From contig NZ_CP025581.1 in NCBI RefSeq assembly GCF_002865585.1, forward strand, positions 2,790,001 through 2,854,000: a stretch of DNA of 64,000 nucleotides, given 5' to 3'. Source of the DNA: Nocardioides houyundeii. Its GTDB lineage: Bacteria; Actinomycetota; Actinomycetes; Propionibacteriales; Nocardioidaceae. The notes below the pieces were generated by a model. It was given only the letters and a program-made list of their open reading frames with translations, ran no database searches and was not told the origin of the DNA. Below are positions 51,256 to 53,665 of this stretch, piece after piece; the first letter of the stretch is position 1, and the number at the start of each line of letters is the position of its first letter. A program made the position numbers and the translations under genes.

Positions 51256-51341
51256 GTCGTCGGGGCCACAACTGGGTACCTACCGCACACGAAAGCCTTG
51301 ACGGGCCCGCCGCCGAGGCAGTGCATCGAGGAGATGGCCAC

Positions 51342-51572
51342 ATGACGACGACTCCGGACGAGCCGCTGAGCGACGACCAGATGAGCACCGAGCAGGGCGA
51401 CCTGACCGGCACGACCCCCGGCCTCGGCGACGCCGACGGAACCGACGCCGACGGGACGGACGGCACCGACGGCGACTCCGGCGACGCCGACGGCACCGAC
51501 TCGCACGACGCGGACGGGACCGACTCCGGTGACGCCGACGGGACCGACGGCACGGACGGCGCCGCGCTCTGA
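51342..51572 (+). CDS. Asp/Gly-repeat mini-protein, candidate modified peptide precursor
   Basis: A 76-residue, strongly acidic protein. The first 29 residues (starting MTTTPDEPLSDDQMSTEQGD) look like a leader. Residues 30-73 are a repeat with DADGTD occurring five times (30-35, 35-40, 48-53, 56-61, 64-69), 17 of 44 residues being Asp, and no Cys. D-x-D-G-x-D spacing resembles calcium-binding loops. ATG 51342 has GAGGAG eight bases upstream. The stop is two bases from the JmjC oxygenase start. I recognise no named family. A natural reading is a substrate of the downstream oxygenase, but a free-standing metal-binding peptide is also possible. Confidence 0.75.
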   Translation: MTTTPDEPLSDDQMSTEQGDLTGTTPGLGDADGTDADGTDGTDGDSGDADGTDSHDADGTDSGDADGTDGTDGAAL

Positions 51573-51574
51573 GC

Positions 51575-52678
51575 ATGCTCGACCTGCTGACCGGTGATGC
51601 CCAGGCCTTCCTCACCAAGACCTGGGCGTCACGGGTGCACGTGCACCACACCGAGCCGGCGGCGCTGACCGGTCTGCTGGGGCTGGCCGACGTCGACCGA
51701 CTGCTCACCTCCAGCGCCATCCGGACGCCCGCCGTCCGGGTCGCCCGGGACGGCGCGGTGCTGCCCGAGTCGGGCTACACCCGCGGCGGCAGCCTCGCCG
51801 GCCGTCCCCTGACCGGGCTGGTGGACCCGGCCAAGCTGCTGGGCCTGCTGGACGACGGCGCCACCGTGGTGCTGCAGGGCCTGCAGCGCTACTGGCCTCC
51901 GCTGGCGGACCTGGTGGCACAGCTCGAGCTGGAGCTCGGGCACCCGTGCCAGGCGAACGCCTACCTGACTCCTCCCGGCGCGCAGGGCTTCGCGGTGCAC
52001 AGCGACAGCCACGACGTGTTCGTGTTCCAGACCCACGGCACCAAGCTGTGGGAGATCGACGGCGCCGAGCTGCTGCTGGAGCCCGGAGTCGTGGCCTACC
52101 TCCCGACCGGGACTCCGCACGCCGCCCGCGCCCAGGAGTCGATGTCGCTGCACGTGACCCTGGGGATCAACCAGCTCACCTGGCGGGCCCTGGTCGAGCG
52201 GGCCGTGGCGGAGGCCGTGGACCAGGTGCCCGACACCCATCTGCCCGCTGGCTACCTCCAGGACCCGTCGGTGCTGGCCGAGGGCCTCGCGCCGCACCTG
52301 GCGGCCGTCGCGGACGCCGTACGCGCGGAGGCGCCCGGAGCCGTCGCGGAGCGGCAGGTACGCCGATTCCTCACCGGCCGACCGTCCCGGCTGGCCGGGT
52401 CGCTGGTGGACCGGGTCGGGCTGGCAGCGCTGGATCGCGGCACGCCGCTGGAGCGCCGGCCGGGGGTGCCGTGCGTCCTCGAGGATGCCGAGGACCGGCT
52501 CCGGGTGCTGCTGGGCGACCGGGTGCTCGTGGTGCCAGCCCGACTGCGACCCGCCCTGGAGGAGGTGGCGCGCCGCGACACCCTCGTCCCCGGCGATCTC
52601 GAGGGGGTCCTGGACCTCCCCAGCGCCGTGGTGCTGTGCCGCCGACTCGTCCGGGAGGGGCTGCTCCGGATTGCCTGA
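51575..52678 (+). CDS. JmjC/cupin_4-type Fe(II) 2-oxoglutarate oxygenase
   Basis: A 367-residue protein of the ribosomal-oxygenase-like cupin_4 branch (YcfD/RoxA, NO66). The double-stranded beta helix contains NAYLTPPGAQGFAVHSDSHD, with the iron ligands H142 and D144 and the third ligand H182 (LPTGTPHAAR). K157 (HGTKLWEID) sits where the family binds 2-oxoglutarate. The C-terminal 150 residues are helical and winged-helix-like, as in YcfD dimerisation/WH regions. Family members hydroxylate proteins. The tight spacing (2 bases from the repeat peptide, 1 base to the Fe-S-type gene) suggests a dedicated peptide substrate. Confidence 0.85.
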   Translation: MLDLLTGDAQAFLTKTWASRVHVHHTEPAALTGLLGLADVDRLLTSSAIRTPAVRVARDGAVLPESGYTRGGSLAGRPLTGLVDPAKLLGLLDDGATVVLQGLQRYWPPLADLVAQLELELGHPCQANAYLTPPGAQGFAVHSDSHDVFVFQTHGTKLWEIDGAELLLEPGVVAYLPTGTPHAARAQESMSLHVTLGINQLTWRALVERAVAEAVDQVPDTHLPAGYLQDPSVLAEGLAPHLAAVADAVRAEAPGAVAERQVRRFLTGRPSRLAGSLVDRVGLAALDRGTPLERRPGVPCVLEDAEDRLRVLLGDRVLVVPARLRPALEEVARRDTLVPGDLEGVLDLPSAVVLCRRLVREGLLRIA

Positions 52679-52679
52679 G

Positions 52680-53588
52680 ATGTTCCGCTGCTCCGTGGCC
52701 AGCCGGATCCGCGACGACGACCTGGCCGGCACCGCCTCCACGGTGCGCAGCTTCCTGCTGCTCCAGCACCCCGGGCCCTGGGGCGTGGACGCGCTGCGCG
52801 ACGCCCGGCTCCCCGACGGGCTCGGTGATCGGCTGCGCGCCGAGGCCCATCGCGCCCGTACCCGGGTGCTGCTCATCCGCCGGGCCGGGCGCAGCGCCGA
52901 CCGGGCGGTGCGGGTCTTCGCGGCACGAGTGGCCGGAGCAGACTCCTGGCTGGGCACGGCCACGCTCGACAGCATCGCCGAGGTGGCCGACCTCGACCTG
53001 GTGGCACTGGCCCGCGGCGAGCACGCGGGTCTGGAGACCCACGAGGAACCGGTGCTGGCGGTGTGCACCCACGGGCGCCACGACGTGTGCTGCGCCGAGC
53101 GCGGTCGGCCCATCGCGCGGGCACTCTCGGCCGACCCTGCCCTGGCGGACCAGGTGTGGGAGTGCTCCCACATCGGCGGCGACCGGTTCGCCGGCAACGT
53201 GCTGGTGCTGCCCCGAGGGCTCTACTACGGCGGCCTGGACCCCGACACCGCGCTCGAGGTCGGCCGCGCCCACCGCCGGGGCAGGCTGGTGCTGGAGAAC
53301 CTGCGCGGTCGGTCGGACCTGCCGATGGTCGTGCAGTCGGCCGAGATCGCCCTGCGCCACCACCTCGGGCTCACCGGCCTGGACGACGTGGTGCCGCTGG
53401 CACGCACCACCCAGGGCGACCGGACCACCGCCCGGTTCGCGGTCACTGCCGTGGGCCACCACCGGACCGAGGAGGCCGAGGTGGTGATGCGGCGGAGCTT
53501 CTCCGCAGAGCCCCATCGGCTCACCTGTGCCGCGGTGCGGCCCGACCCGGTGCCCCAGCACGAGGTCGTCACCATCTCGCTCGGCTGA
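52680..53588 (+). CDS. Apd1/sucrase-ferredoxin-like protein
   Basis: A 302-residue protein of the sucrase-ferredoxin-like (Apd1) family, whose yeast member binds a 2Fe-2S cluster through two Cys and two His in a thioredoxin-like domain. Here CTHGRHDVCC gives C129 and C137/C138, and CSHIGGDRFAGN gives H164. The second His position is Asp (D168), so cluster ligation may differ. No signal peptide. It could supply electrons to, or recycle iron for, the adjacent oxygenase. It starts at ATG 52680, one base after the oxygenase stop. Confidence 0.85.
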   Translation: MFRCSVASRIRDDDLAGTASTVRSFLLLQHPGPWGVDALRDARLPDGLGDRLRAEAHRARTRVLLIRRAGRSADRAVRVFAARVAGADSWLGTATLDSIAEVADLDLVALARGEHAGLETHEEPVLAVCTHGRHDVCCAERGRPIARALSADPALADQVWECSHIGGDRFAGNVLVLPRGLYYGGLDPDTALEVGRAHRRGRLVLENLRGRSDLPMVVQSAEIALRHHLGLTGLDDVVPLARTTQGDRTTARFAVTAVGHHRTEEAEVVMRRSFSAEPHRLTCAAVRPDPVPQHEVVTISLG

Positions 53589-53648: not shown

Positions 53649-53665
53649 TAGAACTTGTTACAAGT
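53649..53665 (+). promoter_or_regulatory. KstR-like operator upstream of the acyl-CoA ligase
   Basis: TAGAACTTGTTACA (53649-53662) fits the mycobacterial KstR motif TnnAACnnGTTnnA at every fixed position. It overlaps a second perfect dyad ACTTGT-T-ACAAGT (53653-53665). It lies in an unusually AT-rich stretch about 70 bases before the ATG of the acyl-CoA ligase gene. KstR is a TetR-type repressor of sterol/lipid catabolism in related actinobacteria; no kstR is in the window. Confidence 0.6.

Follow-up and report, generated by a model that had tools for sequence, protein, structure and literature searches.

A 64,000 nucleotide (nt) stretch of the Nocardioides houyundeii genome (contig NZ_CP025581.1, positions 2,790,001 to 2,854,000; here the window) carries three tightly packed genes coding for an Asp-repeat peptide, a JmjC_2 Fe(II)/2-oxoglutarate (2OG) oxygenase and a Suc_Fer-like ferredoxin protein. 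The trio appears to be a conserved unit like those producing ribosomally synthesized and post-translationally modified peptides (RiPPs), in which an oxygenase of the ribosomal oxygenase (ROX) type hydroxylates the peptide, with Asp as the likeliest site. We put the probability of this reading at about 0.6. Features of the unit are as follows (window coordinates; aa, amino acids).

51328..51333, + strand: Shine-Dalgarno-like GAGGAG, 8 nt ahead of the peptide-gene ATG (sequence)
51342..51572, + strand: gene for a precursor-like peptide of 76 aa with 21 Asp and no Cys (own-genome profile match E = 1.6e-19, adjoining the oxygenase)
51366..51389, + strand: conserved N-terminal motif LSDDQMST, residues 9–16; family form LxD(D/E)(D/E)(I/M)xT (precursor alignment)
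51429..51569, + strand: Asp-repeat core, residues 30–76, with five overlapping DADGTD
51575..52678, + strand: JmjC_2 (PF08007) Fe(II)/2OG oxygenase gene, 367 aa (Pfam, alignment, structure comparison)
52448..52675, + strand: predicted C-terminal winged-helix domain of the oxygenase, residues 292–367, strands and helices in bbb-aaa order (AlphaFold2 model)
52680..53588, + strand: Suc_Fer-like (PF06999) thioredoxin-like ferredoxin protein gene, 302 aa
53046..53312, + strand: predicted thioredoxin-like [2Fe-2S] ferredoxin domain, residues 123–211, C129-X8-C138 and H164-X3-D168
53181..53183, + strand: D168 codon; Apd1/Aim32 have their second His ligand at this position

Linkage and conservation of the three genes

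The peptide and oxygenase genes are separated by 2 nt and the oxygenase and Suc_Fer genes by 1 nt; the recomputed coordinates agree with an earlier note on this DNA. Among 198 genomes of the family Nocardioidaceae, some oxygenase match is found in 104. A Suc_Fer gene is situated directly downstream on the same strand in 73 of 74 full-length class-1 oxygenases (largest alignment gap 71 nt), and the lone class-1 oxygenase without one lies 124 nt from the contig end on that side. At least 21 of the remaining 31 oxygenase matches, which are partial or second-class, also show a downstream Suc_Fer gene.

A precursor profile was built from 25 precursors (the window and near relatives) and used at E ≤ 1e-6; because of this origin its sensitivity is flattered, but its specificity is not. 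The profile gives 72 matches in the 198 genomes, 71 of them directly upstream of a class-1 oxygenase. Thus the possibility raised by the earlier note, that the repeat gene is absent or not conserved beside the oxygenase in relatives, was checked and is not borne out. All 70 genomes with a precursor match carry a class-1 oxygenase and there is no match among genomes without it, while 7 of the 77 class-1 oxygenase genomes give no precursor match at this threshold. A second Asp-repeat precursor is found on another contig (G167:C183:4002-4184) of a genome that also has a normal copy beside the oxygenase; the assembly of this genome is fragmented into 290 contigs and shows 6% contamination.

At least 518 relatives were confirmed, and the best 80 were taken as named loci, a set in which near relatives are over-represented. 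These range from Nocardioides to Micropruina, Propioniciclava, Piscicoccus, Salsipaludibacter and Halosaccharopolyspora, and include Acidimicrobiia, Nitriliruptorales, Egibacteraceae and one deltaproteobacterial metagenome-assembled genome (L139). A precursor-like open reading frame (ORF) is present in 74 of the 76 named loci having at least 400 nt upstream; it is missing in L140 and in L123, which is partly masked with the end of an Asp-rich ORF visible. The ferredoxin gene is found in 71 of the 75 named loci having at least 900 nt downstream (the misses are L122, L123, L135 and L140). Of the 396 genomes covered by a phylum search, 55 have an oxygenase match (E ≤ 1e-20). Within the 29 phylum loci (L033–L061), some of which repeat named loci, 26 have enough sequence for the automatic precursor test, which 23 of them pass, and L037 and L050 were added by inspection; L060 shows no precursor by either means. 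The ferredoxin gene is present in 23 of the 29.

Neighboring genes of the 80 loci were clustered from home-made gene calls covering up to 10 kb, some loci being short. The oxygenase clusters in 79 loci, the ferredoxin in 71 and the peptide, which clusters poorly by BLAST, in 46. No extra conserved gene near the frequency of the trio is seen over these loci, the next neighbor cluster being found in 17 of 80.

The precursor family

Of the 47 core residues of the window peptide (30–76), 17 are Asp, and DADGTD occurs five times if overlaps are counted; the earlier figure of 17 Asp in 44 residues is correct for residues 30–73. When all six frames of the window are cut into stop-to-stop segments, 648 are 44 aa or longer, and that of the peptide is the only one with a 44-residue stretch containing 17 or more Asp. 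The four DADGTD copies that do not overlap are each encoded by a different set of synonymous codons, so the repeat is maintained at the protein level. The peptide gives no Pfam, NCBIfam, PADLOC or PHROGs match at the thresholds used. The 29-residue leader-like part proposed earlier is narrowed here: a conserved stretch exists, but it covers only residues 9–16 and one clade of relatives is without it.

A search for Asp-rich ORFs made without use of the N-terminal motif finds one in 76 of the 80 named loci, and 73 of these 76 carry the motif; the three without it (L111, L120, L123) are cut off or masked. A set of 93 distinct precursors, picked partly by the motif, was assembled from the window, the named loci and the phylum loci; second-class precursors were left out, three with odd cores were kept, and L034 and L035 were dropped as a wrong start had been chosen. 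The 93 sequences are 52–155 aa long with 13–50 Asp, a net charge of −14 to −51 and no Cys. The motif aligned in 92 of them displays L in 90, D in 90, two acidic positions, I/M in 85 and T in 83. Consecutive Asp are spaced by 2 or 3 in 93% of 1926 cases versus 38% in shuffled cores, and directly neighboring Asp account for 1.6% versus 36.7%. The core pattern is therefore made up of D-x-D and D-x-x-D, the intervening residues being small (G, A, S, T).

Twenty further loci were chosen among the weaker oxygenase matches of the family and phylum searches. A precursor is found in 18, 13 by the automatic test and five (L142–L145, L148) by inspection; neither procedure found one in L151 and L161. A second group of 12 loci (L142–L150, L152–L154) has the core EGPADGG(A/S)NPxGHDGGADG(S/T)A or close variants. 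Other cores are PTEDDENLDAPGEHSQDTGDE (L061, L135), ADGTDQGVxGGTxGPRDA (L122, L043) and GDAAGDGAG (L034). By eye, Asp is the sole likely hydroxylation site that is plentiful in every core type. The core type tracks the oxygenase tree, with a branch of support 97 separating the 11 rows of the HDGGADG group from the others; this is a quick tree in which two long branches are flagged.

The oxygenase

The oxygenase matches JmjC_2 (PF08007) with E = 8.9e-18, above the curated Pfam cut-off, and H142, D144, H182 and K157 are invariant across the 52 sequences of alignment A2. The earlier description of a cupin_4/JmjC oxygenase with all iron ligands (H142, D144, H182) thus holds. K157 occupies the place of what we take to be the 2OG-site Lys of NO66. 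The closest solved folds are those of ROX enzymes, and NO66, MINA53 and YcfD align across the winged-helix range.

A bbb-aaa winged helix, as in a RiPP recognition element (RRE), is predicted by the model for the C-terminal domain. An RRE assignment was tried and rejected: hhalign of the winged helix against 14 PqqD segments gives a probability of 4.6, while a control piece of the oxygenase gives 6.1, a second piece 0.65 and the reversed winged-helix domain 1.3. Pfam shows no PqqD match in the oxygenase.

The ferredoxin-like protein

The third protein matches Suc_Fer-like PF06999 (E = 5.1e-18, above the curated Pfam cut-off) and its model indicates the thioredoxin-like ferredoxin fold of Apd1/Aim32. 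The ligand motif given for those proteins is CX8CXnHX3H (PMC8482512, available in part). In the genes adjacent to the oxygenase CX8C is kept, but the second element is HX3D in 69 of 70 and has Glu in one, whereas solo Suc_Fer paralogues retain HX3H. Thus the earlier label, Apd1/sucrase-ferredoxin-like, stands for the fold, CX8C and the PF06999 match, and needs correcting because the second His ligand is replaced by Asp. A [2Fe-2S] cluster at this Cys2-His-Asp site is a prediction from the residues and fold.

The L055 protein shows HX3C in place of HX3D, that is, an additional Cys at the predicted cluster site. Five Nocardioides loci (L063, L065, L066, L067, L070) carry, just upstream of the trio, another Suc_Fer paralogue that is about 38% identical.

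Interpretation and alternatives

As judged from the gene order, a candidate modifying enzyme is encoded beside the precursor. The peptide is encoded with a conserved N-terminal part and a variable core (L142, L143, L144 and L148 being exceptions), and these two parts evolve as they do in RiPP precursors. The peptide is very probably the substrate of the oxygenase, and, overall, Asp is probably the residue that is modified. The N-terminal LxD(D/E)(D/E)(I/M)xT segment would guide the peptide to the oxygenase, with the C-terminal winged helix perhaps mediating the contact. The enzyme would then act many times along the regular Asp array, and hydroxylation at the beta-carbon of many Asp is the likeliest outcome. 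The ferredoxin, with its predicted Cys2-His-Asp site, might aid by redox or iron supply or carry out a second step. Since no dedicated transporter or peptidase is conserved nearby, the product may remain intracellular, as a polyanionic peptide that perhaps binds metal. Metal binding by the product is possible, if somewhat doubtful. The more specific idea that poly-(beta-hydroxy)aspartyl peptides bind iron or calcium inside the cell and are produced by a ROX-type oxygenase with a new Cys2-His-Asp [2Fe-2S] type of ferredoxin is unlikely as a whole.

2OG oxygenases of the JmjC_2 type turn over without a dedicated reductase. Thus, in the earlier scheme of precursor, modifying enzyme and redox partner, the conserved trio of precursor, candidate oxygenase and Fe-S-type protein is retained, while the redox role is only a guess.

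Several observations weigh against Asp hydroxylation of a guided peptide. In the closest solved relatives of the oxygenase the residue hydroxylated is His or Arg rather than Asp, and one His is present in most class-2 repeats. The precursors of 4 of the 12 EGPADGG-core loci (L142, L143, L144, L148) have no N-terminal motif, so that this motif is not always needed, and the winged helix matches PqqD/RRE profiles no better than a control piece. The ferredoxin gene was not found beside the peptide-bearing oxygenases of L034, L038, L043, L061, L122, L135, L149 and L153. No peptidase or transporter is conserved within up to 10 kb over the 80 loci; these could be encoded elsewhere. The four precursors without the motif, from one second-class oxygenase clade, begin almost at once with EGPADGG repeats.

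The peptide could be the substrate of a different change, namely hydroxylation of Thr, Ser, Ala, Gly or His, further oxidation of beta-hydroxy-Asp (e.g. to aminomalonate), desaturation or cross-linking; the ferredoxin would then be needed for a second step. There are two redox-type proteins per peptide, and xTD recurs in the repeats (the middle pair of DxxD is GT 368 times, AT 112 and ST 81); the His of most class-2 repeats fits as well. An Asp-to-aminomalonate cascade (SmaO/SmaX) is known in a graspetide cluster, according to the part of PMC13097080 that was available. Such a change is rather unlikely, however, as Thr is scarce in EGPADGG and GDAAG cores and His is found in only 22 of the 93 class-1-type cores, while Asp is present in every core seen. 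That the peptide stays unmodified, serving the oxygenase/ferredoxin pair as an acidic iron- or cluster-binding helper or a regulator while the pair acts on some other, true substrate, would suit its high acidity and the iron-uptake genes that flank the trio in a few lineages. This appears improbable given the conserved N-terminal part with a variable core, the switch of core type with oxygenase clade, and the oxygenase relatives in RiPP settings.

The earlier note also considered that the oxygenase might act on a ribosomal protein. An enzyme of the NO66/MINA53/YcfD type with the peptide as passenger would agree with its closest solved folds, and the trio oxygenase is the only PF08007 locus found in its own genome. 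But patchy occurrence (104 of 198 family genomes) with near-perfect peptide linkage is not expected of a ribosome-modifying enzyme, and this explanation is very improbable. Hydroxylation of the Asp-repeat peptide by the oxygenase is the reading preferred here.

Relation to known systems

The trio oxygenase shares JmjC_2 (PF08007) with the ribosomal oxygenases NO66, MINA53 and YcfD, but it is linked to a dedicated peptide gene, is patchy in occurrence and has about 25% identity to NO66. PMC12710340 deals with proteins in which PF08007 is likewise fused to a bbb-aaa winged helix of RRE-like kind, and briefly mentions bacterial homologues in RiPP-like genomic contexts; the part of that paper available describes no Asp-repeat precursor, Suc_Fer partner or such a trio. 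BpmG and PbsQ are also JmjC/cupin-type proteins of RiPP clusters (biphenomycin-like RiPPs), PbsQ hydroxylating an Orn residue of its peptide, but their precursors and partners differ, the latter being a multinuclear non-heme iron-dependent oxidative enzyme (MNIO), a B12-dependent radical SAM protein and an arginase (PMC12257519, in part). Asp beta-hydroxylation in RiPPs, the residue chemistry predicted for the trio, is reported for SmaO/SmaX (PMC13097080) and PesHI (PMC13060819) in the portions available; these belong to different clusters, and PesHI, a pair of the MNIO kind, modifies a single Asp. Unlike the Apd1/Aim32 ferredoxins as described in the available text of PMC8482512, the trio protein has HX3D, not HX3H, and is linked to an oxygenase and a peptide. 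Other systems thus already provide examples of a cupin/JmjC-type enzyme that hydroxylates a peptide and of hydroxylated Asp in RiPPs, as far as these partial sources go.

No description of the trio, the Asp-array precursor or the HX3D ferredoxin was found in the open-access literature searched, supplements and a large protein database being outside the scope. The repeat strings HDGGADG, PADGGAN, DADGTDG, DGDSTDA, DGDATDT and PADGGSN are in no open-access paper searched; the term sucrase ferredoxin is absent from the papers listed among the matches, as is PF06999 from those listed in the broader match set. A 'BatC' idea for mycobacterial repeat proteins was dropped, the match in two papers being the word 'batch'.

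For an entire clade of PF08007 oxygenases without assigned targets, the trio brings in a candidate for a dedicated substrate, and it opens a possible route to multi-site hydroxylated Asp peptides. It also points to a ferredoxin subfamily in which, by sequence, a metal ligand has apparently changed from His to Asp where peptide and oxygenase adjoin. The unit is common in actinobacteria, and its peptide is covered by none of the family libraries searched.

Neighboring genes

Iron-uptake genes beside the trio provide a lead. FTR1, imelysin/EfeO and Dyp peroxidase/EfeB genes are found in L106 and L108 with homologues in L112 and L117, and FecCD siderophore ABC permeases in L103 and L106 with homologues in L111 and L117; such neighbors come from few lineages (Micropruina-type loci, Piscicoccus). 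Iron regulation via an IdeR/DtxR box found no support, as the mean best match to the consensus within up to 250 nt before 110 precursors is 9.2 of 19 versus 9.4 in shuffles. A role in anti-phage defense was likewise set aside, there being no PADLOC match.

Oxygenase relatives also adjoin YcaO/TfuA RiPP genes. In Streptomyces eurythermus (L140, 9863–20154) a JmjC relative shares its neighborhood with genes for YcaO, TfuA, a carbamoyltransferase and an MNIO, which look like a mixed RiPP cluster.

Beyond the trio, the sequence TAGAACTTGTTACA is found at window positions 53649–53662, ahead of an acyl-CoA ligase gene. It matches TnnAACnnGTTnnA, which we take to be the operator of KstR-type TetR regulators.
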